Origin: Antitrichia curtipendula
Taxonomy: Eukaryota > Streptophyta > Bryopsida > Hypnales > Leucodontaceae
DNA: 64,000 nt
Assembly: GCA_951230915.1 (NCBI GenBank)
Contig: OX579634.1
Coordinates: 16,518,725-16,582,724, forward strand
Direction of reading: 5' to 3'
Shown one piece after another: positions 24,523-48,108 of the stretch (positions within the stretch are counted from its first letter, which is position 1; the number at the start of each line of letters is the position of its first letter). The translations under genes and the position numbers were made by a program. The notes below the pieces were generated by a model, which ran no database searches, had not been told where the DNA came from, and was given only the letters and a program-made list of their open reading frames with translations.

Positions 24523-25273
24523 TTAATCCTTAAAGGACCAAACACCATATTTTTTTGGCAACATAGCGATTTTGGGTAGCTCACTATGAATGGAGTTTTT
24601 GGGTTTTTTTCTTTAAAATTTTTATACCACATGTGCCCAAGGAGTAGCTTTAAGGCCCAACAATTTTCATAACTTTTGACTACATGGTTAAAAAATGATT
24701 GCATGATATGTAGTTTTTGTTACTTGGTGGGCAACTCGGGTAGCTCAAAAAACTTCTTAAAAAATAATTTATTTTTAAAATAAAAATTTGAAATTGGTTC
24801 TAAAGATTTATTTATATGTGAAAAAAATTTAAGCCATTTGATTTTGATTATTGAGATGAAAGTTATGAGGAATTCTAGTTTGAAGGTAGGTTAGAGTCTC
24901 TGGATTCCATCTCTACCCACAAATTGGAATTCCTCATAATTTTTATCTTATTAATTAAAATGAAATGATTTAAAGTTTTTCACATGTAAGTAAATCTTTA
25001 GAACTAACTCCAAATTTTTATTTTAAAAATAAATGATTTTTTAAGAAGTTTTTGAGCTGCCTTGATTGCTCGCCGAGTAACAAAAACTACATATCATGCA
25101 ATAACTTTTTAACCATGTAGCCAAAAGTTATGAAAATTGTTGGGCCTTAAAGCTACTCCTTGGGCACATGTGGTGTAAAATTTTCAAAGAAAAAAATAGA
25201 AACTTTGGTCGTAGTAAGCTGCCCAAAATCGCTATGTTGCCAAAAAAATGGTGTTTGATCCTTTAGGGGTTAA
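24523..25273. mobile_element. TTAA-flanked palindromic (foldback) element, two A-type ends
   Basis: The whole 751-bp element is a long inverted repeat: about 370-bp arms meet near 24898 with almost no spacer. The left end is TTAATCCTTAAAGGACC and the right end GGATCAAA-complement ending CCTTTAGGGGTTAA. Shared arm words include TTGGCAACATAGCGATTTTGGG and its inverse, AAGGAGTAGCTTTAAGG and its inverse, and GTTATGAGGAATTC and its inverse near the centre. The left arm also matches the left end of 45460-46407. It carries no ORF. A transcript would form a long hairpin and could feed small-RNA production (inference). Confidence 0.85.
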
Positions 25274-28200
25274 CATATGAAGATGCCTCCTTCAACTAAT
25301 AGATGGTCCATATCACAACAACATTTGCATTTAGTTTAGATAAATTCTATCAGTCATTGTAATTTCTAAAGGTATACTTGGCTTGGAGGTCTCAAAATCT
25401 TGTTACCATAGTCTACCCCCCTAAAAACTAGGCGTTCAAATTTTGAACAATGGATGAATGCAAATCCTTCTAAGCACACTAAAATATATCTTTTCATCCA
25501 TCATTTTTTTAAAGATTCTTGTGTTAGTCCTTTAGCATTTGTATTATAAAAATTATTATAAAAATTGCTTTGCAAATGTTCTATACTTGAAAGGATATTG
25601 ATAGGTTTGGCTTCAAAAAATAACTTTTTCAATTCAAAAAATGATCCTTCAAATATGACTTGAGTGAAAAAATAAAATAAAAATCTTCAAAAATTACGAT
25701 GATTAAAAATTAACAATATTGAAATTAAAAAAAAAATATTCTTGTGTGAATCACAATTATTTAGTCTACAATTTATTGTAGAAGGAATTTTTTAATTTTG
25801 GCTTCAACTTTTATTGAAAAATATTAGTGTTTAACTAATTGGTCTAATTGTATGGATATGATCTATGAATCACATTTTACAATTTTGTTGGAGAATCATC
25901 ATTAGAATTATTATTCTCAATTTTATTTTGTAATAAATTTTTACAATTTAAAGATTTGGACTACCTCGGGCCTTTAAGGGGTTAAGAGAACTTATTAATT
26001 GTAGGAGATGCTCAAAAAATTCTAAATATTTTATATTAAATTATTCTATTGACAACACAATTCTTAATTGTAAAATTGTTGTCTAGAAATCTAGATGAAA
26101 CCACAAATATAGGTCCTTTTTAAATATTATACTCCGTATACAATAAAATTTTGGAATTTTTAAACAAAACTTTAAAAAATAAATGGATAACTTCATAATC
26201 TATTTTTTCCACATTTGAAACCACTAGGCTCAAAAAATTTAGATTTTTAGTGTACAAGCTCACAAATCTATGATCATATTTTTAGTGTACAAGCTTACAT
26301 AATCGTACGGTTATGATTTGAAAACGGTTTTTACAACTTATTAAATATTTGACTTTTATTTGTAGCAGAATATGCTTTTAAAAACTCAAAATGGCCTTGG
26401 CCACAGTGGGATTAACCTCCCAAAACTTAAAGTGGTCTTCTTAGTTCATGGCAAGGATGGATGGCAGTACTTAATTCGCCATAAAAAATAGTTTACATTG
26501 ACAGATTGGAGGCAAAAATGGGCCTTCAACAATACTATTCAGTCTTTTGCCACAAGCTAAAATTTACACTAGAAAATGAGACTTCTACATTTTTACTTTT
26601 CAAAATTAGAAAATATACTTGAAAAAATTATTTTAAAAGTGGCCATTGTTGTCAAATAAGAGCAAATAAGGAAGATCAAAGCTAGAACTAAAAAAATATT
26701 TTTAATTCAACATAAATTCAACCTGAATATAACGCATTCTAGGCCAATGTAAAACACACTTGGAACATGTTTTGGAAATTCCTCTCTTTAGAAGGTGTAT
26801 TTCTATTAGAAGAGCTAGCCTACCCAATTTAATAATGTAACTCTTAAAAACAAAGTTCTCAATAGTACTAAGAACCACCAAAATCATATGTGTACATGTA
26901 TTTGAAATTCAATCTAATCTATTGTATTAATTTTAAAAGAATTTAAACAATTCAAGTACATTTTAAATTGCTACAGAAAGCTAATTTGTGAATTTCATGT
27001 TCATTCAATCATTTTTGCATTACCTATGGCAAAAAACAACTTCTGTAGTGAAAGCATGAGGGAAAATAGGACAAGTGTTTCTTGCAATTGCCTTTATTTA
27101 TAATTTTTGCATGACATGTCTAGAATGGATGCTTAATCATCCAGGTCTAAATGTAAAGCTTTATTTCACCTCATTTTGATAAATATTGCAAAGGTTATTG
27201 TTGTCTTTCTCATTTGAATTTCAAATTGGATAGCTAAAAATACATTCTATAACTAGATTAATTACATTTAACTATTTAATTATATGTATTGATACCTACT
27301 AAAAAACATTGAACTACTCAATATTGAATAATGTGGTGAAACTTATGAAGAATTTTGTTTTGTGCACAGTGAAGGTAGAAAAAACATACAATTGTTTTCT
27401 GAACTCAATTTTGAAAATTTTCAAATAAAAATACACAAATAGTATACAAATTGCTTATTAGAATATTATAACTATTGAAATTAATAATTCTCAATTTTTT
27501 GTAAAAGTTATTAGCAATTTAGTTATTTCTTTCATCATGTATCGTCTTCTACTTATTATTTTCTAAAGAAATTGGTTAAATCTTCTTACATATATTTTCT
27601 ACCTATTAAATTCTAATATATTACCTAAATTATTGCTCAAGGTTTACACTTACGTGTTTTTATCTAAAAATGTTGAAAGACAACTTCATCTTCAAAATAA
27701 GCTAGGAAAACTTATTTTTTCAAGTTTATTTATAATAAACTTGCAATTAGTGAGGATTTTAATTCTAAATTTTTGTAAAGATGTGCAATACATGAACAAG
27801 TTAACTGAAGATTTCCTACAATTGAATTAGTTAAAGAATAAACATAGATGAATATTTTAGACCTACTTTGGATATGAGTACGTTGAAATATGTTTGAGCC
27901 TCAAACCATCGTAATATTCAATATTTTAGAGGCTCATTCAATATACTTCAAAGAGTTAGCTCTATGATGCTATACTATATGTTGGAGTCAGACTCATTAG
28001 GCCCCATACAAAATCAACTTTTTTTGGTTGAATTTGAAAATTTCATTAGATGCCATATTGAATTATTTTTTTAATGAATATGATCCTAGCATATAATAGT
28101 TGTATTAAAATAATTGATTTCTAGGTACTTGTTGAAAATAAAACATATTTTTGCCATGTAAATTTATCATCTCCTCATCAAATTGGAAAAAAGTTAGGGT

Positions 28201-29207: not shown

Positions 29208-29217
29208 GCTACACAAG
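29208..29217. repeat. MULE target-site duplication, left
   Basis: GCTACACAAG, repeated exactly at 43807-43816. Mutator-like elements typically duplicate 8-11 bp. Confidence 0.85.
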
Positions 29218-29420
29218 CAACGACGCTAGCGTGTGAGCGTGGAGCGGCGAGCTTGTGAGCTGCGACCGTGGAGCTTGTGAGCCTAGAGCCCCCCCCCCCA
29301 AAATATTTCACTTTTTGAGGCCCAATTTTTCTTTCCAAATTTTTTTACTTTAAAAAGTGGAAATTTTACTATTTATAGTAAAATTCAGGACCTATGACCG
29401 CGGCACCTATAACCGTGCAG
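29218..29420 (+). repeat. MULE left terminal inverted repeat region
   Basis: Degenerate inverse of 43713-43806. It contains GCTAGCGTGTGAGC at 29225-29238, further TGTGAGC copies at 29254 and 29277, a C9-like run, and CCTATGACCGCGG at 29391-29403 followed by the half-repeat CCTATAACCGTG. Subterminal short repeats of this kind commonly serve as transposase binding sites. Confidence 0.75.
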
Positions 29421-30193
29421 GCAGTTTATTTCAAAAGGTTTAGGGTGCCAAAAGTAAAATTTGAATGTGTTTAAAACTTGAACTTCACTCTGCAGTTCAC
29501 CACTAAGTTCACGCACTACAATTGTGCTGAATACTGAATTATTAAATTTTTATGGAACAGAACAAACCTAAATTGAGGTAATCATCACAGTAGCAAAGGT
29601 GAGTATTACGTGGCCTCCACTTTAGCTGTTGTGGATGAACACTTAATACGAGACTTATCATAGAGACCTTGTTCAATAGCTGAATTTGGGGCCTCATTGG
29701 ATTTGGAATATGCACAGTCACATAGAAGTCTCATAGAGCATTCTTCAATGTAATCCAAGGGGAAGGAATGACTATTGGTCAAAAAAAATAAAATGCAGTA
29801 TAGGTGTCCCTCCACCCCCCAAAAGAAGGGGAAAAAAATGGGAAAAAAATAGAAAAGAAAATGAAAAAGAAAATGAAAAAAAAATGGCAAAAAAAATTGG
29901 AAAAAAATGGAAAAAAATGAAAAATAAAAAAATTAAAGATTAAAAAAGTAGGAAACAGGGAAAAAATGGGAAACCGAAATGGTAATGAAAGTATATTTGT
30001 GCATGACAAGTCGCAAATGTACTTCAAGGGTTTAGGTACCTTTTTCATTCAAAACATTTGGCTAATAAGGCATACTCCCATATGTCATGAAAATATAAAT
30101 TTTTTAAATTCCGAATGATTCAAATCATTTCAATCGTATATAATGTAAAATTAATACCATACGAATTAAGTACATAGAAAAATGTACACATCT

Positions 30194-33100
30194 CTACTCT
30201 GGAACGGTGATGATCTCTGCTCGAAGTAGAAGAAGCTTCAATTCGTTGAAGCTATAACTCGGTGCATGAATGAATTTGTCATCGTGGATGTCCATTTTGC
30301 AGAAGTACCTGTACAGGTAGTACAAGTGTTTGCAATTGACATATTGCTGATGACCTCCAATAGCTGACACAACCATATTCGCAAAGTCCGGACATGTACA
30401 GGTGGGGAACATACCCACTATAACTCAATAGACACATCTTTTATGCTCAGCCCCCGTTTCAAGCGACACTATCGCACCTAAGCCCAGGAAAGGAAGCAAG
30501 GTCACTTCTAGTATTTGTCCTTTCACGTTCCCAGCACTCTCCCACTTGTTGCGATGTTCTGGAGTTGGTGCATTTGGAAGTCGGCGTATGGATCGGTTGT
30601 TCCTCACCGTTGGATATACATCTGCATTATGTGGCGGCGTCTGGTCATATAAAACACTCTCGAATATCTTTGACATTTTAAAGAGACGACACGGTGACAA
30701 TGTAGGTCACTCCTGCAGACCGAATCCCGCGTGCTGCAACAACAGAGTCTCCTCCCGACTTAGGTTTGTATCTGTCAAGACAGGCCATACCTCGGGCACC
30801 TCGGGCCAATCAAGAACCCACTTTCGCTTGTTTCCTTTGACACATCGTTCAATGTCATCCCCACAGAACCAAAAGTCCGCGACTACCACCCGCTTACTCC
30901 CGTAATCTTCCTTTCTTCCACGATACGTGGGAGCTGGGGTTCCCTTCCGTCCTCTAGCAATTCTAGCAGTGCACTTCAGATTTGATCCACGTTGTTGCGC
31001 TTGACATTTTGCGTTAGATTTGTGGCTGATTCTGGCAATGTGCCACTTTGATGTGTCGCAGTCACTTTCAAATGCAACCGTAACATGTCGTGATGGCTGT
31101 ACCTCAGGCTGTTTTCCTTTGTCCTCAGAAGACTCTACTGAAACCGCAGTGGACCTTGTTCGAACACGAGGTTGAGAAAAATTGATCTTGTCCGGACGAT
31201 GTGAGTCTCCTTCATCTCCAATGGGGATGTCCAACTTCCTCTTCGTACTTCCAAATATTTCTTCTCCTTCCAAATGTGGTATTCGGGTTCCAACTCCCTC
31301 GGCTCCAGGTAATGTGTTCAGTGCTTCTGCCATTTTTTGGGGGTCTCTGCTTCGTCTTGCAGCTCTCAACTTCAACTCCCCTTTTGATGGACCCGATCCA
31401 CTTGCATGGCCTTTTAAGTAAGCACGATAGTTTGTCATTTGCATCCACGCACGGATACTATCATCGCAGTGGCGTCAAACAAATTGTTTCCTCTATTTCC
31501 GGACATTTGAAGCCACTTGTTGTGAACTGTCTCTGACAAATTGCATGACAGCATGTCCGCCATCTCTTCCAAATTCAAATCCTAATAATTCATCCACAAA
31601 ATGAATATGTCATACGATCATAGAATACCTTATGTAATAATCCCACAAATTTGCATAAGTCATGGTAACTCACAAATCCTTTCATTGAACCAAATCATGT
31701 AGACCATCAAAACAAATTTTACAAAACATTTCTGTCTATTTGAACAAAAATAGACAAAAGGAAATGTAGGAAATTCAAATTGAACATAATCTTACCATTT
31801 GCATGAAGCCCCTCCACTGGCGATACCTGAAATGCCAAAATGCAAGCCAATGGTCTAAGTGATGAAGCGCATCTTCTGTGGCAGCTCCTGATGATAACCA
31901 CCACGACCGAATAGCAAGGTAACGTGTCTCCACCTCGTCCAGAGTCTTTGCATCTTTGTATTGTTTGCATAATGTATTGTGCTGCTGCTGGAATGCTTCC
32001 TTGATATACTTCTGTGTGTGTTTTAGAAGAGAAGTACTCCAATGCAATAAGCATGTCCTCTCCTGATTTTCCATTTTCTTGTCTGCAGAACCACTTCTGT
32101 AGACAATGCGGACCGCATTCCAATTAGCCATGGCGCTATCCGCCATGAATCCCTTGAAATTTGGATGATCTACTCCGTGTTTTGACATGACCGCGTTCAA
32201 GCATCTCCAGAATTGTACTTGGATCTCGGTATCTTCAGATTGCATATCGCACATTGATATGGTCATCACCTTCTTGTACTGCGGGTCGTACACGTGGCAC
32301 GCCATCGTGGTCCACTCCTTCACGCGCTTCACATGGTTGAACATCATCCACGCATTCTCCAGATTCCCTCCGGATTGCATGCGTCTCACCAGGTCCACTC
32401 CACTTCCCGGTCCTTCAGTGAACATCTTGAAAATATACACCTTCTCTTTCCCTTGGCCAGGGAAGACGCTGTCATGTATGAACTCAAACTTCGACTCTTT
32501 CTTCATGGTCATTATGTTGTCGATGACCCCTCCTCGGTTGTTTGATCGAAATGAAGATATGACGTTCCGTATATTAGGACTGCTCAAGTATTGGAAACGG
32601 TCCATGACTTCCTCCAACTCCTCCCCCTTCAACATCTCCTTGTCTCCCTCTCCGTTGTGAAAGAGATAGCTGGTTAGGAACTCTTTGCTTGCGGATAGAG
32701 CAATTGCAGAGTTGGTTGCCTTTGGCGTCTTGGTTACTTGCTCTGCAATAAGTCCACATATTTCCTCTGTGGAATCTCTGTACATGCCCTTTGCAACAGG
32801 ATGAGCATGATTTCCAAAGTGAACTGCGGCTCTACTCATTTTTGGGTTGTCACTATAGCAGTAGTACATCCTACCAGTGCAGGTGTCCAGACATGAAGGT
32901 GCAATCTTGCAGACCTTGCAAACTAGAGTGCAATCTTTAGGTGAAGCGCTCCTAACTGCAAATGGGAAGGTTGTATAACCGCTCCACTCTGTCTCATTGC
33001 GTTTAGAAGACCTCTTCAAATAATCACAATCAGGATTCTCACAGACAAGATGACCCGCGCAATAAGACTTACGGAACCTCAGATTGTCGGAGTTGTGAAT

Positions 33101-33949
33101 GTTCGTGGTCAATACCTTGCACCATGGGTGTCCATCGTACCGCCTGTCCATTCCTTCCAAGTTCCTAGCCGCCGACAAAGACGGACATGAACGACATGCA
33201 GGCAGTTCGAAGATGACATCCCCGTTGAATATCGGTGGCAGAAATTGTACTCGGTGATGCTTTATAGTGTTTAGATCCATTGTCGACAATTCGTTCCTAG
33301 AGCGATGCATACTGGCAAGCCTCCTCAAGCACTCCATTATGCTCACACGGTCGACTACATTTGGATGAAATGGAGGGCGAGTCACTAGTGACTGCGCTGG
33401 ACAATTTGACGGGGTGACAAACACTGACTTCGAAAGTTCAACATCTTCCGATGTAGTTTGGATAGAGCATGTTTGCTTCCGAAGCGTTAAGTCAGGTGAC
33501 TCTCCTTCTGATTCACTAGACAACTCTATGATAGTATCAAGTTTCTCAACCTTAACTTTACGTAGAAGAGCACCTTCTGAAAATCTCGAAATTAAATCCG
33601 GCTGAGGACCAGGTGAAATAGAATGGGTGACATATGGCATATCCACTGTCGACGAATCTGACTGACGACTTCTAATCTCAGTTGAAGCAGCTAGTAAAGA
33701 TAGAGGAAGGCCATACGCTCTGTAGTTTCCAGAAGCAAGGTACCAACAATCACCTTCTGCTGACCTCACGACATGAACGGACTGCTGTAATTCACCTGAA
33801 TCTGACTTCCTCTCTTCTTCAACATAGATGGAAGTTTCCAGAAATCTAAAACGGACGTGAAGTAGGTGACTCATGACACGAGCATGTCCTCCGTCATCCA
33901 CTGGGAAAACCAGGGGAACTTCGTGGCCATCCACTCGAATGGAAGCCAT
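30194..33949 (-). pseudogene. MULE transposase with SWIM zinc finger, frameshifted and with two stops
   Basis: Exon 1 runs from ATG 33949 to 31796 (718 codons, phase 0), the intron is 31795-31582 (GTAAGA to ATTATTAG), and exon 2 runs 31581-30194. The N-terminal half has Cys/His clusters ending HFGNHAHP, like WRKY/GCM/FLYWCH-type zinc folds. A SUMO-interaction-like patch, TIIELSSESEGE, lies at about residue 150. Candidate catalytic acids are D555 (CHVYDPQY), D604 (GFMADSAMANWN) and E735 (SCNLSETVHNKWL, a match to the E-x-x-N pattern of MULE transposases). The C-terminus has a SWIM finger, CTCPDF to NCKHLYYL (near 30300-30395). Exon 2 carries a one-base frameshift near 31466 and in-frame TGA codons at 30707-30709 and 30425-30427; the frame is otherwise continuous. 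It is therefore a recently dead gene, divergent from the cargo gene. D555 is the least certain assignment. Confidence 0.85.
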
Positions 33950-34660
33950 AGTGCAGAGTATGTACAAAGAGAGGAATGGAAGCAAACAAAGTCTCCCCTT
34001 AATGGAAAATGATAAGCAAAGAACTATTGTGAATCAGAGTAGCCTAGAGGATTCCCCTACCGGCAATATAGAAAGAACCTCCCACGATGGAAGCAAATAG
34101 TGGAATATTTACTAATCACTTATAGGAAAGCTGTCACACTGCGTGTCAATCACAAATTTAACGCAGTCATCTGGCAATTAAATAAGTGCATAGTGAATGT
34201 AGGGGCGCGTTTAATAATTCCGCACCGCCTCCATATTCCGGACACTTCATTATTACACTACGATTGACAGGAAAAGCTAATTCAGAGTTTGCTAATGAAG
34301 ATGTTGGTGAACACTATTCAAATTTGACGGCACATTCATGACTGAAATTGATAGCTGTCACTCTTTTCAAATTCAAAAGAGAGCTACAAGAGTGAGCCTA
34401 CTCTGAGCTGTGCCGTCTGTGCTTGTGTGCAAAAGGCTTTCAAAGAGCACAAAAGTCATATGCACTTACCGGGATCGCAGTCTTAGTCCCATTCTAGTTG
34501 TGTACCGTTTGCTTTGCCAAATGAGAGTTAGGGAGAGGTAAGGTTTAACCACATGCACTCAGGCAACCACATCTTTCTTTGTAATGCTTCAGAGCGTCCC
34601 AAGCATCGTATGAGGCGTATATCTTTGTATTTCTCGTCTTCCAAAGCTCTTAGGAGATCT
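33950..34660. promoter_or_regulatory. Divergent intergenic region of the MULE
   Basis: This 0.7-kb spacer lies between the transposase start (minus) and the first plus-strand candidate exon and presumably holds promoters for both directions. I recognise no specific elements; the assignment is positional. Confidence 0.4.
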
Positions 34661-34858
34661 ATGATGACTCGACCCAAGAGAGTAGTGTCTAAAGCGAGTT
34701 AGCATTCAGAAGGGAACTTGAAGAAAGTCCTTTCCTATGGAGGAGGTGATACGGGCCCAGAGGAGGCCGTTGGAACTCAGATGCATGATATTGGGCAAGG
34801 AATATCGGAGGATATCACAAGCATTCAACATCACTCAGAAGATGAGGGAGTTGTACAG
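34661..34858 (+). pseudogene. Candidate alternative first exon of the cargo gene, one stop
   Basis: Tandem ATGs at 34661 and 34664 open a basic start (MTRPKRVVSKAS), then an in-frame TAG at 34700-34702, after which the same frame stays open through an acidic stretch (ITSIQHHSEDEGVVQ) to a CAG/GTTAGC donor at 34858. It ends in phase 0 and would join exon 38336 in frame. The stop makes it non-functional as read; it may be an older or alternative leader exon. Confidence 0.4.
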
Positions 34859-35299
34859 GTTAGCATTTTCAAGTACAATTTGTTCTCATGCATGGAAAGC
34901 CTAAATATCATTTCAATGTAACGTGGAAAGCAGAACAGGGCGGTTGGCAGCTTCAGTTACCAAAGGTCATTCTTCGTCATTTCGCTGATCTTCTAAATCA
35001 TTCTAGAGGGCAGTCCACTTGCAATTTTACAAATCACCTAATGAAACGAGTAATGAGGTAAATCCAAGGCGAATGTATGTTACTGCATGCCCGAAGAAGT
35101 CCAGATTCAGTACTAAAGTCATGACTGTTGGTTTAGCCGCCATTTTTAGCGCTGGGAATTTTGAAATTTTATCGTGACTTCTCGCGAGTACCGGCCATTC
35201 ACTCGGCTAATGAGAAAGGCGGTGATATCTGCTGAACTTGGCGGTATCCCCAAACTAAGCGGAGACAGTTGAGAAACGAAAGTATCCACTGATGTTCCC

Positions 35300-35960
35300 G
35301 CTGCACTCTCTTCCATTTCGGCAATGGGCGAGGGTTTCGGTCATTGGGAGAACTGGTGACAAGCGCAGTGAGTGAATCAGCCACCGAAAGGGCTGTGTCT
35401 TGCTTGCATTCCGGCATTGGCTTGGAGGTTCGGTCATTGAGAGAACTGCTGACGAGTGCGGTGAGTGAATCCGCCAGCGAAAGGGCTGTGTCTTGCTTCC
35501 ATTCCAGCATTGGCTCGGGGTTTTGGTCATTGAGAGAACTGGTGACAGCGCGGTGAGTGAGTCGCCACCCAAAGTCTGTGTCTTGCTTGCATTTCGGCAC
35601 TGGCGAGGGTTTCGGTCATTGAGAGAACTGGTGACAGCGCGGTGAGTGAATCGCCACCCAAAGTCTGTGTCTTGCTTGCATTTCGGCACTGGCTTGGGGG
35701 TTCGGTCATTGAGAGAACTGGTGACGAGCGCCGTGAGTGAATCAGCCAGCGAAAGGTCTGTGTCTTGCTTGCATTTTGGCCCTGGCGAGGATTTCGGTCA
35801 TTGAGAGAACTAGTGACAGCGCGGTGAGTGAATCGCCACCAAAAGGGATGTGTCTTGCTTCCATTTCAGCACTGGCGAGGGGAGCGGTCATTGAAAAAAC
35901 TGGTGACCACCACGGTGAGGGTATCCGCCACCGAAAGGGCTGTTTCTTCGCGTGGTCCGC
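35300..35960. repeat. Tandem array of about 90-bp units, seven copies
   Basis: Units of 88-93 bp begin with TCATTGAGAGAACTGGTGAC and include GTGAGTGAATC, CTGTGTCTTGCTTGCAT and GGCACTGGC. Starts fall near 35338, 35432, 35525, 35615, 35705, 35797 and 35887, with a partial unit before the first. Copies are well conserved, so the array is fairly recent. ORFs across it, including antisense ones, are products of the periodicity. Confidence 0.9.
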
Positions 35961-36057
35961 GTCTGCATCCGCATGGTCTGCGTCGATTTTCTCTTTCAGT
36001 TTAGAGTTTGGGTTTTCTTGTAGTCGGTCTCTAAATCCAGACCCAGTCGTTCCATGG

Positions 36058-36075
36058 TTTAGGGTTTAGGGTTTA
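36058..36075 (+). promoter_or_regulatory. Telo-box-like (TTTAGGG)2 motif
   Basis: Two perfect TTTAGGG units followed by TTTA lie 57 bases before the candidate start ATG at 36132. Telo-boxes (AAACCCTAA) are known elements of plant promoters and 5' leaders. A regulatory role is suggested by position only. Confidence 0.5.
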
Positions 36076-36131
36076 CAAAAGTTCGTAACCGAATCGCCCT
36101 GGCTGTGCAGCAAAACTACAAAATCACAACG

Positions 36132-36230
36132 ATGAGGAAACTCCGGAGCCGAGTTCGAGACGCGACCAGCCCGCCAGGGGAGACCCTCACCCCATTGCGG
36201 CGCCATCCGACATCAGCCACTCAGGAGCAG
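36132..36230 (+). CDS. Probable first coding exon of the ParB/methyltransferase-like gene
   Basis: ATG at 36132 opens 33 codons beginning with a basic stretch (MRKLRSRVRDATSPP) that could act as a nuclear localisation signal, and ends at a strong donor, GAGCAG/GTAAGT, in phase 0. It can join exon 38336 or, skipping that exon, exon 38975 in frame. A telo-box-like motif precedes it. Chosen over 34661 because it has no stop and a near-consensus donor. The following intron (36231-38335) contains repeats and hairpins. Confidence 0.55.
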
Positions 36231-36324
36231 GTAAGTCCAAACGGAAATCCATTTACTCGATTCAACATGGTCATCGGCGTGTGTTCATGGCCACTCTCCC
36301 TTTCAATATGTTCATCGATCCCGC

Positions 36325-36448
36325 AAAAAAAAAATTCAGTCCCGTTGCGGCCTGTCACCCTCCCCGTACCGAAAACGGGGGTAGCTCGCGCCACCCCCGT
36401 TTTCGGTACGGGGAGGGTGACCGCCATAGCGGGACTGAATTTTTTTTC
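36325..36448. repeat. Perfect GC-rich hairpin (29-bp core arms)
   Basis: Arms 36354-36382 and 36393-36421 are perfect inverses around a 10-base loop (AGCTCGCGCC); pairing continues outward imperfectly through TTCAGTCCCG/CGGGACTGAA and A-run/T-run ends to about 124 bp total. It sits at the left edge of the 66-bp tandem array. Confidence 0.95.
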
Positions 36449-37300
36449 TCGGGATGGCTTCGGTTGTCAAGGCAGTTCTGCTTCCGTGACCAAGAGGAAT
36501 CGATTTTTGTTTTCTCGAAACCAATTGAGTGGTCGGGTCTAGCTAGTGGCCGTGACCATGGCAGCAGCAGGTCAGAATTTTGTTTTCTCGAAATGAATTG
36601 ATTGGTCGGGTCTAGCTAGTGGCCGTGACCATGGCAGCAGCGGGTTAGGAATTTGTTTTCTCGAAACCAATTGACTGGTACTGTCATGGCAGTCGCTGTG
36701 ACCAAGACATCAGCGGGACTGAATTTTGTTTCTCGGGATGGATTCTTGTTGTCAAGGCAGTTTCTGCTTTTGTGACAAAGCGGGAAAGAATGTTGTTTTC
36801 CCGAAACCAATTGAATGGTCATGTCTAGGCAGTGGCTAAGTCCATGACAGCAGCGGGACTTATTTTTGTTTTCTCGAAACCAATTCACTGGTCGTGTCTA
36901 GGCAGAGGCTGTGTCCATGACAGTAGCGGGGAAGAATTTTGTTTTCTCGAAACCAATTGAGTGGTCTTGTCTAGGCAGTGGCTGTGTCCATGACAGTAGT
37001 GGGGAAGAATTTGGTTTTCTCGAGACCAATTGAGTGGTCGTGTCTAGGCAGTGGGTGTGTCCATGACGGTAGTGGCACAAAATTCTTCTCTGTCGGGATG
37101 GCTGGAGGCTGTCAAGGCAATTTCTGCTTCCATGACAGCAGTGGGACAGAATTTTCTCAAAACGAATTGAGTGGCACTGTCATGGCAGTCGCTGTGTCCA
37201 AGACAGCAGCGAGACAGAGCTTTTGTCTCTCGGGACCCCTTGTGGCTGTCAAGGCAGATTCTGCTTCCGTGACACAGTGGGACAGATTGATGGTTGCACT
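36440..37300. repeat. Tandem array of about 66-bp units, two interleaved types
   Basis: One type contains TTTTCTCGAAACCAATTGAG and GTCTAGGCAGTGGCTGTG; the other contains CTCGGGATGG and GTCAAGGCAGTTTCTGCTTC. Roughly a dozen units lie between the hairpins at 36325-36448 and 37306-37426, inside the cargo gene's first intron. Confidence 0.85.
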
Positions 37301-37305
37301 AGTCG

Positions 37306-37426
37306 GTCCCTCTCCGTGAACCAGAAAGAGGGGTAGCGTGAGCTACCCCACCAGACCCCCTTTGGACCCGACAAGGGTCTGCGGGGTAGCTCACGCTACC
37401 CCTCTTTCTGGTTCACGGAGAGGGAC
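37306..37426. repeat. Perfect hairpin with 44-bp arms
   Basis: Arms 37306-37349 and 37383-37426 are exact inverses. The inner end is GGGGTAGC-GTGA-GCTACCCC, and the 33-base loop has its own AGACCC/GGGTCT stem. No mismatch over 44 bp implies very recent origin, gene conversion or selection. Confidence 0.97.
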
Positions 37427-37746
37427 TGCCTTCTACAAGGCTGTTTCTTATAATCCTACGGGGTATCTCACCGGATTTCATCCAATTGGGCCATAACCCT
37501 TGCACAATCCCCACTCACTAGATAGAGTTAATACGCATTTGTTATCACATTACATTAAAATGATCATGCTTGTCTCGGGTGTTGAGCAACACCCGTATTG
37601 GATAGCTCACCATAGAGATTTAATCTCTGTGAGGGAAACACAGCTGACAATTTCAACACATCGTTTTTTGGTAAATCCGCATTGCTGCATCTTGTGAAAT
37701 CCATCCGTTTACTGTTCACTTTGCCATTAGAGCATGCAGTACGTGT

Positions 37747-37850
37747 CAGTGAACCAAAAGGAGGGGTAGCGTGAGCTACCCCCAAGACCTTCGTCGGGTC
37801 CGACGGGGGGTACGGGGATTACTCACGCTACTCCTCTTTTTGGTTCACTG
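37747..37850. repeat. Diverged copy of the 44-bp hairpin
   Basis: Arms 37747-37782 and 37814-37850 pair with a few mismatches and share GAACCAAAA, GGGGTAGCGTGAGCTACCCC and the outer CAGTGAACC with the hairpin at 37306. The loop carries TCGTCGGGTCCGACGGGG. Confidence 0.9.
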
Positions 37851-38040
37851 ACAGGGATTGTATGCTTGAAGGCCTTCAAAAAGTGTCGAGTTACTTTTAT
37901 TCTTCCTTTCTTGGTGATGGTCGAAGTGCTTCATCATCCAAGTTGCACGACCATAATTAAGTAATCAAGAGCACACTTTAAGAGAGTTAGCAATTATGGT
38001 TGAAGAATTGAAATGTAGAATCTCTCGTCGTCCCGATTTT

Positions 38041-38090
38041 GAGGGTAGCGTGAGCTACCCTCATGACCCCCGTCAGACCCGACGGGGGTC
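38041..38090. repeat. Two short hairpins of the same family
   Basis: GAGGGTAGC-GTGA-GCTACCCTC (38041-38062) and GACCCCCGTC-AGACCC-GACGGGGGTC (38065-38090). These are the core and loop modules of the larger hairpins, here without the outer arms. Confidence 0.85.
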
Positions 38091-38335
38091 GTAGAACTTG
38101 GTCGTTAAAGCATTCGAAGTAGACATTTCAAATCTGAAAGGGGTATGCTTTTCAAATGTCCATCTATGTTGAATCTAATATGCACTTGTCGTGAATATAA
38201 TCCTAATTGTATTTCTAAGAGTTTTAATTATGATTTTGAATTTCTCTTAAATCATTATTGTGTCCTCCTAATAAGCATTTTCATGTTACTAGTTTCTTGG
38301 TTTTATTGATACAGTTTACATTGTGTGTTGTTTAG

Positions 38336-38806
38336 ATGGAGGTAAATGAAGGTCCCAGAGGTCAGGGATCTTTATCCGATGCTGAGACTTTGACTGTGAC
38401 GGCCCTTGACATGGCAGGACCATCCTTACCATTGACTCCGATGGGTGCTAGCATTGAGGTGCCAGAGGAGTCCATTGCAAATGAGAATTTGGACTTCGTA
38501 AGCCTCGATGACATCTTGGATGCGTGTGACCGTGCCTGTGACTATGTGGAGCAGCCACATGAAAGCCATGTTAGTGGAGAGAGGACCCGAGAGAGGACCC
38601 GGAAGAGGAATCCCGTGTTCTCCTCTAGGAGCTCCAGCACGGAATATAGGTCTAGATGTCACTCTTCAGTCTCAGTTTCTAGTCCTCCTTTTCAGGAGTT
38701 TTGTGACTGTGCTTGCAGTCACAATTTGGGCAAGCACAATGTGGTTATTATTCACCTGAGTTCTGACTCAGATGATGATGTTGATGTTGATGTTGATTCC
38801 ATTTAG
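38336..38806 (+). pseudogene. Second exon of the cargo gene, ending in a stop; SIM-bearing
   Basis: Starts directly after an acceptor-like TTGTTTAG and is open for 156 codons. The region is Ser/Arg-rich in the middle and ends in a hydrophobic patch followed by Ser/Asp (VVIIHLSSDSDDDVDVD), a textbook SUMO-interaction motif layout. The last codon is TAG, immediately followed by GTGGAA; an ancestral CAG there would give a consensus CAG/GT donor in phase 0, joining exon 38975 in frame. The exon is phase 0/0, so skipping it also keeps the frame. Alternatively it is a short independent protein of 156 residues. I favour a decayed exon. Confidence 0.55.
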
Positions 38807-38974
38807 GTGGAATTCATATAATTTGTTAGTGATATCACTTGTACGTTTTGATTTTTTATCTGTGTTTCATTGACATCTGTCATATTTCATACGTGGACTA
38901 GCACAGCATATTCCATGCATTTCATTATGAATTGTCTGACTTTATGATTTTCGTGGACATCCATTATTTCGCAG

Positions 38975-41900
38975 ATGGAAGAGTCACCTATTAGTCGGAC
39001 CCAGGCTGAGAGACATACGGTGACACCACCTACTGATGATTTGACACAACCAGAGATTGGAGGTGACGATGGTGAGGATTTGGCTATGGATGTTGTGGAT
39101 GATGACGAGGAGGCCAAGGAATTGCTTGAGGATGAGCTTTGGAGATGGCAGAAGGTGGACTCGGTGTCCACCATTGCGAGTTTGAGGATGAAGCCAGAGA
39201 AACTCTCCCGACTGCGCATTCCACTATGCAGACTTGTGTCCATGCCAATGGTGAGGCCAACGCTTGCATCCGACCTCGTCAAACTAGAACAGGAGTTCAT
39301 CTTTGGGTACCGAGAAGGCGCAGCGGTGTTCTATGTGTCCATAACCAATGAGGCTGGTGAGAGCTCAGACTTCACGGAGGAGGAGATGAACGGATGGGAT
39401 ACATGGTGGAAGAAAGCGAACCTGGATTTCAAGAAATATCTTGAGTCGGTTCCAAAGCTTCTGTTCATGAAGAACTTGAAGTTCTTCGTCTGCGATGGGA
39501 ATCATCGCCTTCAAGCTTGGATGAATCACATTTCCAGGCTACATACGGCGAACCCGCTATTTCACTTTGCAGTTGACAGTATTATCTTGGATACGAAGGG
39601 GAGAACCGAATTGGTCATGCAGGTGATGCATGATGTGAACAAGTAAGCATTATTGCTTCTTATGTTGTATATATATCCTCTATTGATCTATTATTTAGGA
39701 GTATGTGTTATTACGTACATGATTCACGTCACTAAACTTTTACATTCCATTTCAGATCAACAGAGGACTCTCACGTGAAGTCCAATCTTGTGCACACTCT
39801 TCACTGCGTGCAGAAGTACGGTCTTCTCTCTTTGGAGCGATTTAAGGAGATGTTAAGGCCTTCGGAGAGGCAACGGAGTGTTGCCCAGGCCGCGGGGAGG
39901 AAGACGTGGTATTCTATGCCCGTGGAAGTGTTTACGACATTTCTATTCCGGGTGAGCTTCTCTGATGGTCTGGGATCTAATATTGAGTACTTCCACCTTG
40001 AACTTCTTTACGATAGTGGCCTTTATTTGTTGAAATGGTTGTTGATAACATGTATTTGCAGCAAGAGATTGCACAGGCATCGGATGCTGCAGTGCGAAAA
40101 TACAACGAGGGCACACCGATTGAGGAGAAATCGGTAGAGGGAGTTGCGAATGCCATGAGATTGGGAGCGAAGGAGAGAGCCTCAAAATTGCAGGTGAAAA
40201 TGGAGAAGTTGATTGCGGTTGCAAACCTAGCTCATGGTCCCGGATTTCTAGAGGAGGTGAGAAGTAATTGCTAACCATCAATGTTAACAGTTCTTGTAAT
40301 TGGATTTTATGTTCGGTTGTTCACTTGAGAAGTTTCGATTTCGCAGATTGAGAAGCAGTGGACCACAAATGAGGTCCCCGAAATGACCCTGGAGAAGCTA
40401 CAGATGATTGCAACTTGCAATACAACGGCAGCACAGAAGTTGAAACTTCTGAAGTGGTGGAATTCCTCCATGCCCTCTCGAGATGCGAGACGGTTCCCAA
40501 CAAAGCCTGTTTCAGAGGAGAAACTGTTTCCATTCCTCAACAAGTTTGTCTGGTGGGCGGGGGTAAGTTCATTTATGAGTTTTTATTAAACTATTAGCAT
40601 ATCTGGATTGATTTTTTAATTGATTTGGTTTGCCATTTTCAGTACTTATTTACTTCCAAGGCACTCATATGGAACTTATTTATTGTTGATGCCACAGATT
40701 GAGAATGGTGTGTCGGAGTATTTCGAAAATATTGCCAAGAAAGACAACCTCCAGGTCAACATGGCAACCCCGCTTGAGCCAGAGACACTCGCCGAGTACA
40801 TTGAAGGGTGGAGGAGGAAAATTTGGGATCACAGGTTTGGTCCCATGATGAAGGGAGCAAATGCATTCAAGAAGTCAGACTCCTTCTCGAGTTATGACGG
40901 ATCAAAGCTTGCTATTCAACGAGTTATTTTCCGGTATGACTTTCACAGCCTACATATTCCTCTTACTTTGATCAATGCGAGTGTCACACTAGCAATATGT
41001 TCTAGGTATATGTGACTATTCTCTAATATAGTATCCACATACGTATTTCTTAATTACATGAAGTCGAAAATATATAGAGGGATGACTGGATATTATAATC
41101 CTTTATAATTTAATGTAGGTTGAGTTCCAACTGTATTCTTCATCTCATGCTTATGTAGCAGTATTAAAATGGGAATGGGAATGACTATTTGTTCGGCATG
41201 CCTAATGTTCTGTCTTTGTTTGTGTTTATTGCAGTTACTTGAAGCATGAGCTTCTAGTTAAAGCCGCAATCGCTCGGGAGGATCTTCCTCCGTTCTTGTC
41301 TACTTGGCTGGACCGCAGTTCCGAAGAGTGCATGTACACCCAAAGCCAGCTTCGGACGTTTACGACAGCTCATCTGACAGGAGGAGGGTGGTATTTGGAT
41401 TGTCACGTAACATTCACTCATCCTCTGGAGGCAGACCTTCGGAAGTCACTTGATGGAATTGGAGTGATTGACTTGGAGGTTGCAGAGTTCGCTGACCTCA
41501 GTGACCAAAAGAGGAGGAGGGCCATTGCGAGGAGGATTACTTCAGACAAGAAGAAAGAGACAACTCTGGAAGACATCATAGCAAACAGGGAGAAGAAAGA
41601 GGCGGACCGCTTGGCAAAGTTGGCTGAGAAAGAGAAGGAGGCGGAGTTGGAGGGGAAGGGAAAGAGCAAAGGAAAGAAGAAGGTGGATGGAGGTGGCGAA
41701 GTGCCTGCAACTTCAACGGTGGACCAGGGCTCGGCTATGCAAGCTGGATCTGGTAGACGGCTGAAGAGGAAGGCGGTATTGTCTGAGGTGACGACGGACT
41801 TGGTCACGCAAGGGACGGATGTCATTGTGATTGGTGATGACGCTGAGGTCAACTCCGAGGAGTTGATCTTGAACATCTCCATTGTGGATGTCATGGATAA

Positions 41901-43469
41901 CGTGGATGCAGAAACGGCGACATGCTACAGTGAGGTCATGGAGTTCATTAAGAAGGTAAGGTATTAGTATTTCAAATTTTGTAATTCGGTATTGCAATGA
42001 TGAACTTGAACACTGTATACTTGTACAATTATTGATTGATTATTCATTCATTAATTAGAGGAAATTTGTTTTGTAGTCATCGGCAGGAAAAGCACGCACT
42101 CACGGCGGCATTGTGAGCCGTGCGCCACTAGTGGATCTTATTTTTTTCGACTGCCAAGAGAATTTGCCCGTGCCGGATGTCTCATTTCTAGCGAATGCAG
42201 TGCCTACATGGAACTCAGACTCGGAGTACGATGACATTCAGCAGGCATTTCTTTTTGCAGAGGACCATTTGCAAGACCATGGCTGCATGGTAGTATTCCA
42301 CTCGTACTGCGCAGATTCAAAAGGCGTCATTAAGGGTTTATGTGTCACATACCCGACGCTGGTGGTGAAGAAAGAGTGGCTGGGCATTAACCGTGTGCAC
42401 TTGACCTCCCCATTGGATGAAAGCACTACGGTATGATTTTTGAATTAATGCTCATTTGGTAAGTATTTGGCATTAGTGATGAAACTTCTTAATTTCTGAC
42501 AATTTTTTGGTTTTCGTGATTGCAGACTCTGAAGTTTGGAATCACCCTTTTGGTGAAGGACCTTGGGGCAAATGGAAAATCGAAATTCTCTTACATGCGC
42601 ACAAAGTCTATGCAGAAGGCGAAAGTAGACCTCGCAAGGGACGACATGCTCATTAACTACACGACGGAGGAGACCATGTTGATGAACGAGAAAATACCAT
42701 GGCGGGGGGCTCACGAGAAGGACCCTAGATTCTTTCAGTTCTTGATAGAAGGGACTACCAGTGAAGGAGATTTAGTGGTTGACTGCACAGCATCGACTGG
42801 TAAGTTTTGAATTCAATGATGTTGTAGTTCATTTGTTTATCATATTGTCGAATCATATCATTTACATGATTTCGAATCATTTCATTTACATTCTTCATTG
42901 CAGGTGCATCCATTACAACTTGTCGCGGCACAGGCCGCCACATTGTGGCTTTGGAGGAGGACAAAGATATTTTTAACGTCCTCCTTTTGCCCATGAAGAA
43001 GAGCACTCCGGTTGTAGTGACAGCGGAAGTGACAGAACCGCCAGCACCGGTTGAGGCCTCCCAAGATCCGGACGCCATGACAGTGGTGCCCCAGAAGTTT
43101 GCTCGGAAGAATAGAGCCAGTAAGTAAGTTCTTCATTTATAAATATTTTGTGAATGCATGGTGCTTTTTTCTCTATGAGTCTAACATTGTGTCATTTGTG
43201 TTTGCAGTTGTGAGGGATTGATGCCGACAGTTTCTTTGTTGAAGAAACGTAGACTTCTCATTAGTCCAGAGAAGTCTTTTCATCTTCCGGTGTATGCCGA
43301 GAAGATGGCATTGTCATTTGCGGATTTAGGTTGCTCAATTCCAAAGCCCCGTAAACCTTCTTACGCTAGAAATGTTTTAGAGTTTATTGATGGATCAGCA
43401 TCTGAGGGTAGAGAGACATTAGATTCATCTACGAACGAGGATTCTAAGACTGAGTCCACTGCCACTTAG
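38975..43469 (+). CDS. ParB/Srx-like domain fused to beta-class DNA methyltransferase-like fold
   Basis: Ten exons, all GT-AG and in phase: 38975-39642, 39756-39951, 40062-40256, 40347-40562, 40698-40933, 41235-41955, 42077-42430, 42526-42799, 42904-43123, 43208-43469; total 3342 nt, 1113 residues. Residues 60-215 resemble a ParB/sulfiredoxin-type domain with the signature DGNHR at 174-178. A Lys/Glu-rich segment and a SUMO-interaction-like VIVIGDDAE precede residues 745-975, which follow the beta-class N4/N6 methyltransferase order: motif IV position (DLIFFDCQE, 764-772), a central HGCMVVFHSYC strand, KKEW, then a motif I-like VVDCTASTGAS (946-956) and GRHIVALEED. The catalytic D/N-P-P-Y is replaced by DCQE and the first glycine of motif I by Ser, so enzyme activity is doubtful. 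The donor at 43124 gives this C-terminus; one at 43120 would end the protein at 43221. Bacterial and phage proteins with this two-domain layout are known. Function in the transposon is unknown. Confidence 0.75.
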
Positions 43470-43712
43470 ACTCATGAGATTGACATATCTTATGAGTTGA
43501 ACTATTGTGTATTGATTTTCATTATGATTGGATTTGTGTGTTTTATGGCTACATTTTGGACGTCATTTCTATCCTTTTATTCTTCTGGAATGCGTGATTT
43601 CAATTCAATTGATATGAATTAGTGATTGACATAACTAAATTGAAAAAGATTTCTAAGTAACATAAACTTCCAATATTTTCACTCACATTTATGAGAATTT
43701 CTAATTACCTAC
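43470..43712. other. 3' flank of the cargo gene
   Basis: AT-rich sequence between the stop codon and the right terminal repeat, probably 3' UTR and terminator; no further ORF was seen. Confidence 0.45.
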
Positions 43713-43806
43713 GTCCACGGTCATAGGGCCCGGCAGAAAAATTTCTCCGAAATAAATTCCCACTCACAGGCTCACAGGCTCACAGGCTCACATGCTAGCA
43801 ACCCTG
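43713..43806 (-). repeat. MULE right terminal inverted repeat region
   Basis: Contains CCACGGTCATAGG (43715-43727) and three tandem GCTCACAG units ending GCTCACATGCTAGCAACCCTG at 43806, the inverse of the left terminus. The units match the TGTGAGC repeats at the left end. Confidence 0.75.
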
Positions 43807-43816
43807 GCTACACAAG
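43807..43816. repeat. MULE target-site duplication, right
   Basis: GCTACACAAG, exact copy of 29208-29217. Confidence 0.85.
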
Positions 43817-44278: not shown

Positions 44279-45459
44279 AACAATCAAGCATAGGTGATTT
44301 ACAAGAAAATTTCATTATTTAGAAATTTGATTTAAAAAATACAAAATCTGCAATGAATATAGATCATAAGCCTAAAAAAACTCAAATTGTTGAAAAAATC
44401 TAGAACATGGGTAAAAATAACAACTTTTGTGCTTCATTTTAGCAACTCAAACTAGGAACCAAAAACATCAAACCTAAAATAGGATTTGAAGTACTTTACC
44501 AAAGAAGACAAGTAATTAGGGACAATGAATAATCTTAGAGGTACTACAATTATAGGATAAAAGAAACATATCATTTTTCTTTAGAAGCTTTTAATATTTT
44601 CAAAAATGGTCCCATTTACTTTATAGTTTATTTGCAACTATCTCCTTTTTTTGTCTACTTTTTTACTTTTCTACTTTTGAAGGACAATTTTTTTTTTAAA
44701 TTCATTATTTTTTGCTTCACAAATTGGAATGGTGTGAAACTGCTTTGCAAACACCTCTCCATATGGTATCACGTACAAACCATGTTGCCGCCGCAGTCGT
44801 AGAGGTGCAAAGTACCACCACAAAACAAAACAAATCAAACACCAAAAGAATAGAGTATTATGCATTGTATTTGTTACTGCAATTGTAAGAACTTTTTTAT
44901 ATATAATGCCTTCAAAATTTTGCCTATGTTTTATTCTGTTGATATTGAATCCATATAACAAGCACAACAAAATCAATAGATTCTTCATTTTTTATTTTTG
45001 TAATTTTTGTAATATTTATGAACTATTTGAAATTAATTTTATATCTTGAAATGAACCAAAATCAAGCAAGGTATACATCCCTTTTTAGGAAGAAAATTTA
45101 GTTTGAAATCCATATTTTTATTTAATTGTAATTTTTTTCCTTTGAATATAAAATTTATATTTATATTCACAATAAATGAACTAGACATCTTTTATTGGTT
45201 TAGTTTATCTACTTTAATTGATAAAATTTTACAATGTAATTGAATATAAGAGGGTTATAATTTTGTTTTGAATTTGGTATTGATTGTAATATTAATACGA
45301 GACCTTAAAAAATACTATAAATAATAAAGTCATGATAGTATGAAAAAAAAAAATTTAAATACCATAATGATGTTTAAGTTTTGTGAGTGCAAATTCAAGG
45401 AAAGATTGCATTTTTTTTAATGGTTCTATATTTTAAAGTACACTACTTGTTATAATTTG

Positions 45460-46407
45460 TTAACCCCTAAAGCACTAAACTGCATTTTTTGGCAACATAG
45501 ATATTTTGGGTAGCTTACTACGAATGGAGTTTTTGAATTTTTTCTTTGAAATTTTCACACAATATGTACCCAAGGAGTAGCTTTAAGGCCCAACAATTTT
45601 CATAACTTTTGACTACATGGTTAAAAAGTTATGCTATGATTGTTGTTTTCATAGCTCGGTGAGTAGTTCGGGCAGAAAAAAAAACTTCTTGAAAATTCAC
45701 TTTTTCTTAAAACTAAAACTTGAAATTGGTTCTCTAGATCTTTATATACATGGAAAGCTTTGAATAATTCCATTTGGATTAATGAGATAAAAGTTATGGG
45801 AGTTTAAGTTAGCGAGTAGTTTGCGGGTAGTTGTGGAATCTCTACTTTAAGATAAAACTTTGAAGCCCTTTATTTAATTCACTTTTAAATATTTTTGGAA
45901 AGAAACAAAATCAATAGGTGTAGATTGTATATTACAACATTACAACCATTGGGATTGGGATTTATCAATTCCATGAATAAATTGTTAACAATTTAGTGTT
46001 TTGAATCATTTTCTACTTCTTTCTACTTACTATTTTTCCTATATGTTGTACAATTCTAAATGATCTGAAAATTTTCAAGCATGTTGCTAGCTTGCCTTCA
46101 AGAATTAATCCAAAGAGTAACCAACATTTCGGGCATTTTTCATACTCATTTGACCATCTAAAGTGCAGCTGCCCGGTTTTTGCAGTTCCCAATTTTATTC
46201 TTTTTCCATTTCAAATGCAAATATCTTGCAATCTACATGGTGGAAATTCCTAAAAATTTTCCCACATGTTCTCAAACTAGTTTCCTACAAGATCCTATGG
46301 TTACATGTGCTCAAAAAAGTTTTAAGAAAAAAAATTGGTACTTGTCCTAGAAATTGCAGTTTTGGAGCGTTTTGGTAAAAACATAGTCAAAAATCTTTAG
46401 GGGTTAA
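45460..46407. mobile_element. TTAA-flanked element, ends A and B
   Basis: Starts TTAACCCCTAAAG and ends CTTTAGGGGTTAA. The left 380 bases match the left arm of the palindrome at 24523 (GGCAACATAG, AAGGAGTAGCTTTAAGGCCC); the right 400 bases match the right part of 16901-17812 (AATGCAAATATCTTGCAATCTA). The left copy of the duplication shows the empty site TTTGTTAATAGG near 1867. No ORF of note. Confidence 0.8.
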
Positions 46408-46488
46408 TATGCATGGATCTATATGCATGGATCTTTAAGGCTTTTACTTGCTCTTCATACATATATCATGATTTATGATATTTTCATT

Positions 46489-48108
46489 TTAATCACTAGC
46501 AGACGAAATGGATTTTGGGCAAGTTCCTGTGACCTCAATTTTTAATGAAACTTTTTGAAATTTTTTCATAAGATAGAAAAATTTATTATCTTTGTGGGAA
46601 TATAATTTTCATTTCAGTCGATGCTTATGAGCAAAAGCTATGCTATCCTAAACATAGTTTTCAAGTCACTAGGCAGAAAAATAAATTCACCAAAACTTGA
46701 AATTAATTTTGTAGTTTTTTTTCCTTATAGATCATATTTTTTTTACATGTTATATGTGAAGCTTCGATTCATTTCATTTGGATTAGTGATGTGAAAGTTA
46801 CGAACAATCTTGTTTTTTGGGCAATCTGAGCATATTTAAAAAAAAATAACTTATAGGATTCATTTGTGAATGCAATATTCACAATTTTTTCAAAAAAGGT
46901 TGTTTGACAAGGTTAAGTTTATTTTCTAGAGAAATCTCACCATTGGGATTACTGTGTTTCAATTTTGTCTTAGAGCTATTAACAATTTAGTTTTTCTTTT
47001 AGTCTGGGACCTACTTCTACTAAATAATTTTTTAAAGAATGAAAATCAGATGTGTGTTTTTTGAATTTTTTTTCCTAGACTTTCAGCACATTAAATTTTT
47101 AATTCAAAGTCCATGGTGCAAATTATTTTTACAAATGGCGGTCAAAGTTATCTGAAATTGCAGGCTATTGTTTAAAAAAAATTTTGCTTCCAACTTTCAA
47201 TGCTAATATCCCTCAATATGTACGGTCAAGCTTTCATGAAATTTTTATCATATGATTTTAGGCAAGTACTAGTGGTTGGCGCTTGCTATGCTACACATTC
47301 ATCATTAGAATTTTATTAGATTTTTTTTATATTAGATAAAATGCAGAACAAAAATTTCAATAAATCTTCAAATAAAAATTACTAAAATCTTTGTATAAAT
47401 GTGGTTGTAAGTAAGCATATATTGAAATGTACAATAGAAATTTATTGAACGATGAATGAAATATATGCAAAGGTGAATACTGTAAAAGATACACATTTAT
47501 TGTAATGCATTCAAAAGTTGACTCAATTGTTACGAACAATGGCAACCCAAAAATTTGGTGAATTGAAAAGAAAAACTTGTAAATTTCAAAAACTTCATGA
47601 ACAACTTAATTGTTGTGAAATCCAAAATCGCTTCAATTGAATAAATTTTTCAAATCATTAGGTAGTAGCAATAGAATTTTGAAATCATAAAAGCTGTAAA
47701 AGTGATATTACAGAGGTGATTGCAAACTACTACTCTATTTTGTAATATAACATTGTGTGAAAATATTATTTGTATGTATGCATGATTGAAAGTATTTTTA
47801 CAAAATATTAAAATTGATTACTTCAAAGACTTATTGAAATCATTATCATGCATTCTATTCAAATATATCAAAATTTTACTAATATGTGATACAATGAATG
47901 CGTAGCATAGCAAGCATGAGCCCCTATTATTAATGGTAGTATTTGTGATATTATAGAGGGAGTTATGATTTTAGTAGTATGATAGTTCAAGATCCTATAA
48001 TTAGATTCTTAAAAAAAGTGTTTTTTTGTTTTCATTGGTGAACGCAACAGAAAAATGGCGATTTTGAGTGTTTTGAAAGAAAAATGGGTTTGGACTTTTA
48101 AGGGTTAA
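46489..48108. mobile_element. TTAA-flanked element, ends C and B, with a nested insertion
   Basis: Left end TTAATCACTAGCAGACG (decayed terminus) followed by the C-type block TTTTGGGCAAGTTCCTGTGA; right end GGACTTTTAAGGGTTAA with the B-type block GCGATTTTGAGTGTTTTGA. The empty site is CATTTTAAAAAA near 1938-1950 in the left duplication copy. The length is inflated by a TIR element at 47280-47926. Confidence 0.7.
47280..47926. mobile_element. Nested small TIR element (hAT-like ends)
   Basis: Left TAGTGGTTGGCGCTTGCTATGC and right inverse TAGGGGCTCATGCTTGCTATGC match at 16 of 22 positions, followed by a shared TAC-R-CATTCAT. TAGGGG-type ends are typical of hAT elements, but I see no matching 8-bp duplication, so the class is uncertain. 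No ORF. Confidence 0.5.

Follow-up and report, generated by a model that had tools for sequence, protein, structure and literature searches.

A two-gene Mutator-like transposon family in the moss Antitrichia curtipendula encodes an accessory protein with ParB/sulfiredoxin-fold and methyltransferase-derived domains

The stretch of DNA analysed here, referred to as the window, comprises 64,000 nucleotides of contig OX579634.1 (16518725-16582724) from the moss Antitrichia curtipendula and contains a Mutator-like element (MULE) of 14,589 bp at positions 29218-43806, carrying a transposase gene on the reverse strand and an accessory gene, hereafter the cargo, on the forward strand. The element is bounded by 21-bp terminal inverted repeats, CAACGACGCTAGCGTGTGAGC at 29218-29238 on the forward strand, an end shared by four other genomic copies (F1, F2, F3 and F5), and, as its reverse complement, CAGGGTTGCTAGCATGTGAGC at 43786-43806 on the reverse strand. 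A perfect 10-bp target-site duplication, GCTACACAAG, flanks it at 29208-29217 and 43807-43816, with no strand assigned to either copy. Each end in the window holds one copy of the terminal motif GCTAGCRTGTGAGC together with additional TGTGAGC copies, which form subterminal repeats at 29228-29282 (forward strand) and, as CTCACAGG, at 43763-43796 (reverse strand). A second inverted motif was located at 29391-29403 (CCTATGACCGCGG, forward strand) and 43715-43727 (CCTATGACCGTGG, reverse strand), and CCTATGACCGYGG occurs as a single copy inward of each element end. The direct repeat, the inverted termini with their extra TGTGAGC copies and the second inverted motif had all been described in an initial annotation of the window and were recovered in place.

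The duplication was assessed by a random-flank test and by comparison of terminal pairs. The 10-bp repeat sits exactly 7 bp outside GCTAGC at both ends; in random flanks an exact 10-mer was found in 42 of 20,000 cases at any offset and in 1 of 20,000 at the symmetrical offset. The hexamer GTGAGC, common to the ends and to the palindromes described below, occurs 16 times inside the element compared with 6.4 in shuffled sequences, 2 of 500 shuffles reaching 16. An origin of the repeat from a flanking paralogue was considered and rejected, as the right-flank paralogue starts about 170 bp from the insertion point and the duplications of four other copies differ from that of the window. The flanks themselves hold a diverged duplication (1-2606 and 44279-48790, 76-82%), whose copies are interrupted by different insertions and whose match extends to within about 170 bp of the right end of the element.

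The host assembly (400,189,583 bases in 303 contigs) contains 553 sites of the 14-bp terminal core GCTAGCRTGTGAGC, compared with 2 for the reversed control pattern. The first 100 sites listed, all on one contig, included 25 converging neighbour pairs, 9 of them less than 1 kb apart and 5 separated by 14-18 kb. The ends of the window element, of these five long pairs (F1-F5) and of the nine short ones were examined, 15 terminal pairs in all; at the 7/7 offset, 12 of the 15 showed 10-mers differing at no more than 3 positions, compared with 1 of 210 flank swaps between copies. The window element, F1, F2, F3 and F5 each showed their own, different, perfect duplication of 10 bp (0 mismatches) at this offset. 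These four copies are near full length, end at the same bases as the window element, as the initial annotation had proposed to verify, and carry both genes; their main blocks are 88-98% identical to it over most of its length, with lower values in the repeat region. The remaining long pair, F4, is a relative whose cargo exons show about 49-67% identity and whose transposase was matched in fragments only. The nine short pairs, 226-916 bp long, have the same ends and are similar to miniature inverted-repeat transposable elements; they look like non-autonomous derivatives. The occurrence of identical ends at different genomic sites indicates mobility, and a duplication of 10 bp falls within the 8-11 bp range given for MULEs in a survey of the superfamily (PMC6446971).

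The transposase gene consists of exon 1 (31796-33949, reverse strand), encoding a DDE core with N at the first catalytic-type D, and exon 2 (30194-31581, reverse strand, limits set by comparison with other copies), encoding a SWIM-like CxC..CxH motif. The core folds like ISCth4, as expected for an IS256/Mutator-type transposase of the DDE/RNase H class; together with the duplications, the shared inverted ends and the dispersed copies, this agrees with the initial reading of the element as a MULE. Pfam transposase models gave no match at E 1 among 37 family members and the Pfam SWIM model scored E 1.4, below the cut-off; the CxC..CxH motif is readable in the window, F1, F2 and F5, and not in F3. 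Of the two divergent multi-exon genes originally described, both are present, but the transposase gene of the window copy is not intact, exon 2 being broken by a frameshift and stops. CpG decay was rejected as the source of the transposase lesions, the observed/expected CpG ratio being 0.72-0.73 in the transposase and 0.63 in both flanks. Viral contigs scanned with both alignments and genome contigs scanned with the ParB alignment yielded no relative. A second scan of genome contigs detected one 4.1-kb contig (CADCWO010000080.1), labelled as a cyanobacterial metagenome-assembled genome, with a transposase 55% identical, which is probably a contaminant.

The cargo gene comprises 10 exons on the forward strand and encodes 1029 amino acids, combining a ParB/sulfiredoxin-fold domain with an N6/N4-methyltransferase-derived domain. 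The former is encoded by exon 1 (38975-39642), which is followed by exons 2-6 (39756-39951, 40062-40256, 40347-40562, 40698-40933 and 41235-41955), and the latter by exons 7-10 (42077-42430, 42526-42799, 42904-43119 and 43208-43221). Upstream, a 156-residue frame on the forward strand (38336-38806), about 300 bp of which are matched at 66-69% by 8 of the 10 distant loci, is probably an upstream exon, possibly the first, or a small third gene.

A structure model of exon 1, of moderate quality, shows the ParB/sulfiredoxin fold, with the ParB-fold repressor KorB among its fold matches. The arginine of the P-motif GNHR is R in 57 of 60 rows; in ParB-fold domains this arginine is needed for nucleotide binding, according to PMC12704722. 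The test against PF02195 (ParB/Srx) put forward in the initial annotation gave no match at E 1 in 60 cargo members, and the weak Pfam matches among these included DUF1015 in 8, DndB in 1 and DUF6551 in 1; no significant domain emerged when single frames or the complete cargo were scanned with Pfam. The spliced full-length cargo query retrieved nothing among 7994 scored candidates, probably because the database holds exon-sized gene calls, and the exon-1 query retrieved 305 proteins with E values no higher than 0.1, the best 120 of the 305 being listed, with many relatives in other sequence sources.

The second domain was related to methyltransferases by sequence (phrog_18293, 3.4e-6; PADLOC, 1.2e-5; CcrM, 6.2e-5), and the fold and sequence matches together agree with the ParB-like plus methyltransferase-like composition first attributed to the gene. 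The companion test against PF01555 (N6_N4_Mtase) did produce a match, but its E value of 0.023 was below the cut-off, and PDB sequence searches gave nothing relevant apart from the DpnA methyltransferase at E 1.2. Active N6/N4 methyltransferases have a catalytic motif IV of the form [DNS]PP[YFW] and usually a motif I of the DPFxGSG type. In the cargo, motif IV reads DCQE in the window and F2, DCPK in F4, and DCHE, DCLE, DCPD, DCPE (three loci) and NCQE in the 7 readable of 12 subfamily loci; in every readable member (the window, two copies and 7 of 12 loci) it is DC[PQHL][EDK] or NCQE, never DPPY, and in none does it have the active form. For motif I, the window reads DCTASTG and F4 reads DCSAATS. 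Because motif IV is DCxE-like and not DPPY, DNA binding seems a likelier role of the cargo than methylation, and an action through DNA modification, as initially suggested, is not supported by the motifs that could be read.

The association of the two genes was evaluated across the genome with 150 scored matches to cargo exon 1 out of 1318 candidates and 97 scored matches to the transposase core out of 1656, both lists being lower bounds. A scored cargo match lay within 20 kb of 81 of the 97 transposase matches, and all 81 pairs were head to head, with a gap of 5.2-13.3 kb (median 6.6 kb) and a chance expectation of about 0.015 per hit. The transposase and the cargo travel jointly, in divergent orientation and bracketed by common termini and 10-bp duplications, as had been proposed for verification. 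Among five copies the cargo showed dN/dS values of 0.21-0.28. The element belongs to a two-gene Mutator-like family whose accessory protein, uniting a ParB/sulfiredoxin-fold domain with one derived from an N6/N4 methyltransferase, is under purifying selection.

The region between the two genes contains GC-rich tandem arrays with units of 93 bp (35310-35948) and 73 bp (36505-37067) and three near-perfect long hairpins at 36318-36455 (-112 kcal/mol as RNA), 37294-37438 and 37731-37866, with energies from -98 to -117 kcal/mol and z-scores from -14.7 to -17.2; none of these features has an assigned strand. The hairpins are a possible source of small RNAs; a search of Rfam returned nothing at gathering scores. 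The palindrome GGGTAGCGTGAGCTACCC occurs in four perfect copies within 37331-38060, two in the second hairpin (37331 and 37384), one in the third (37764) and one, also without strand, nearest the cargo (38043-38060), with two degenerate copies at 36379 and 37816 and no further copy in the window when up to 4 mismatches are allowed. Perfect copies were also counted in F1 (3), F2 (3), F3 (4) and F5 (2). In the 1.5 kb preceding cargo exon 1, the palindrome GTAGCNNNNGCTAC is present at 19 of 20 close loci and at 8 of 10 distant ones, with spacers that vary among loci (GTGA, GCAA, TCGC and others), and it has 0 occurrences in the 49.4 kb outside the element. When the 1.5 kb of the window was compared with the ten distant loci, alignments at E<0.01 were confined to the palindrome block and the approximately 300 bp of the 156-residue frame. 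On sequence grounds, GTAGCNNNNGCTAC is a candidate binding site of the cargo protein.

The explanation we favour, with a probability of about 0.45 and hence tentatively, is that the cargo protein binds the palindromes, and perhaps the ends, and keeps the promoters open or aids end pairing without methylating DNA. The ParB domain, with its mostly retained P-motif arginine, would load the protein onto the conserved palindromes between the genes and perhaps onto the GTGAGC-rich ends, while the former methyltransferase domain would act as a DNA-binding or partner module and would not methylate bases. Once bound, the protein might hold the element promoters open against host silencing or help join the ends for the transposase, and the spread of copies carrying the cargo, or able to borrow it, would lead to retention of the gene.

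Several observations weigh against this interpretation. As to the family, F4 and the short pairs L023 and L026 (7, 6 and 5 mismatches) lack a recognisable duplication, one neighbour pair of ends faces divergently, 126 bp apart, and a transposase lesion is present in all five copies read. On scored matches only, 16 of the 97 transposase matches had no cargo within 20 kb and 68 of the 150 cargo matches had no transposase match. The model of the ParB domain had a mean pLDDT of 70.6 and a best Foldseek E value of 0.049, none being below 0.001, and in place of the P-motif arginine F1 has C and F5 has H. With regard to the putative sites, GTGAGC also exceeds expectation outside the element (21 compared with 11.8 in shuffles), F4 lacks any GGGTAGCGTGAGCTACCC palindrome, and 1 close locus out of 20 and 2 distant loci out of 10 have no GTAGCNNNNGCTAC within 1.5 kb. 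The ten distant loci amount to about four lineages, since six loci are 92-98% alike and two 99% alike, and the palindrome is present in three of these lineages and absent from L051. Finally, the palindrome lies within hairpins and may instead function in RNA or be bound by the transposase, and an altered motif IV does not prove that catalysis is lost.

The most probable alternative, although rather unlikely in our view, is that the cargo is a working N4-cytosine/N6-adenine methyltransferase, targeted by its ParB domain to element DNA to escape silencing or control transposition. Its methyltransferase ancestry is clear, the first D of motif IV is retained in 6 of 7 readable subfamily loci, with one P in four of those and in F4, and methylation was proposed for an Ectocarpus protein of the same make-up (PMC12477816); however, motif IV ends without an aromatic residue in every readable member, and both motif I sequences depart from the DPFxGSG type. 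Less probable still would be a transposition regulator that binds palindromes and ends and represses or times the divergent promoters, thereby controlling copy number. The position of the palindromes between divergent genes suits a repressor as well as an activator, and the match to KorB agrees with this possibility, although nothing found here separates it from an anti-silencing role. The stability of the hairpins would also fit a reading in which they and the palindromes act as RNA, either as a small-RNA source or as a silencing trigger, or as transposase sites, with the cargo acting elsewhere; this we judge slightly less probable again, and distant loci keep the 5-bp arms with changed spacers while the long hairpin arms do not align there. 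That the cargo is a captured passenger without a role for the element, as MULEs often capture genes (PMC6446971) and some transposase matches have no cargo nearby, is very improbable and already disfavoured by the fixed head-to-head pairing in all 81 linked cases, with copies 78-100% identical to the query, by the dN/dS values and by the many relatives in other sequence sources.

A more specific form of the palindrome-binding explanation, which we regard as doubtful, is that the plant MULEs of this family encode a partition-like apparatus of their own, in which a nucleotide-switched ParB-fold clamp joined to a dead methyltransferase would load at parS-like palindromes specific to the element and situated between its two genes, spread over the element and exclude silencing chromatin or synapse the ends. 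If true, a eukaryotic transposon would reuse the bacterial ParB-parS principle without DNA methylation.

The closest known system is the giant transposon Sola1-1_Ec32 of Ectocarpus, in which a protein of 1104 residues that combines ParB-like and DNA methyltransferase parts is encoded in the opposite direction to the transposase (PMC12477816). Both are giant DNA transposons with an accessory gene opposite the transposase, a protein of similar size and the same two kinds of domain; the two proteins were compared by domain make-up and gene orientation and agree in both. Sola1-1_Ec32 differs in having a Sola1 transposase and a brown algal host, and its authors predict 4mC or 6mA, whereas the motif of the moss cargo is altered. 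Giant transposon families described there often have pseudogene transposases, like the broken window copy, and the same source reports that red algae have giant EnSpm elements carrying accessory genes and, citing Iyer et al. 2011 and Petroll et al. 2025, similar proteins in green and red algal transposons. With the Mutator/MULE superfamily (PMC6446971) the element shares the 10-bp duplication, inverted ends, SWIM-like finger and DDE/RNase H core near ISCth4, and it differs from typical MULEs in its 14.6 kb length with 21-bp ends and a core unrecognised by Pfam. A ParB-methyltransferase partner is absent from the rows of Table 1 examined in that survey. Phage ParB-N6_N4 methyltransferase fusions likewise join a ParB fold to an N6_N4 methyltransferase on mobile elements, but occur in bacterial viruses (PMC12704722). 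The cargo ParB exon gave no tblastn match at E 1 among 50,697 phage records. VANC of VANDAL MULEs counters silencing, and KAONASHI-type MULEs carry Ulp1-like cargo; these are also accessory proteins encoded by MULEs, but their architecture is different.

No MULE with a ParB-methyltransferase partner was found in the literature searched, which was covered in part. The initial statement that no such partner had been described holds for MULEs in the literature searched, but not for the kind of protein, already described in Ectocarpus Sola1-1 (PMC12477816). Such accessory genes in algal transposons are known, and what would be new is the setting in a MULE, together with the altered motif of the methylase and the conservation of the palindromes. 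The occurrence of two-domain proteins in brown-algal Sola1, with green and red algal parallels cited, and in a MULE family of a plant, for which at least 150 cargo copies were scored in one genome, suggests either a single ancient helper or recruitment on several occasions, to counter silencing or to assist transposition. The candidate site, the purifying selection and the dead-looking methylase motif suggest that binding may be separable from modification as the selected function.

Outside the element, the window contains a LINE-like element (long interspersed nuclear element; 3316-9727) whose long frames encode an endonuclease (PF03372) and a reverse transcriptase (PF00078), and a DUF702 gene at 11957-13186 with long Q/H runs, which presumably belongs to the SHI/SRS family of land plants and is the clearest mark of a land-plant genome in the window, in agreement with the plant origin assumed in the initial annotation. 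A palindromic repeat of about 760 bp (24517-25279, 85%) was also observed, half of which recurs at 45455-45810.
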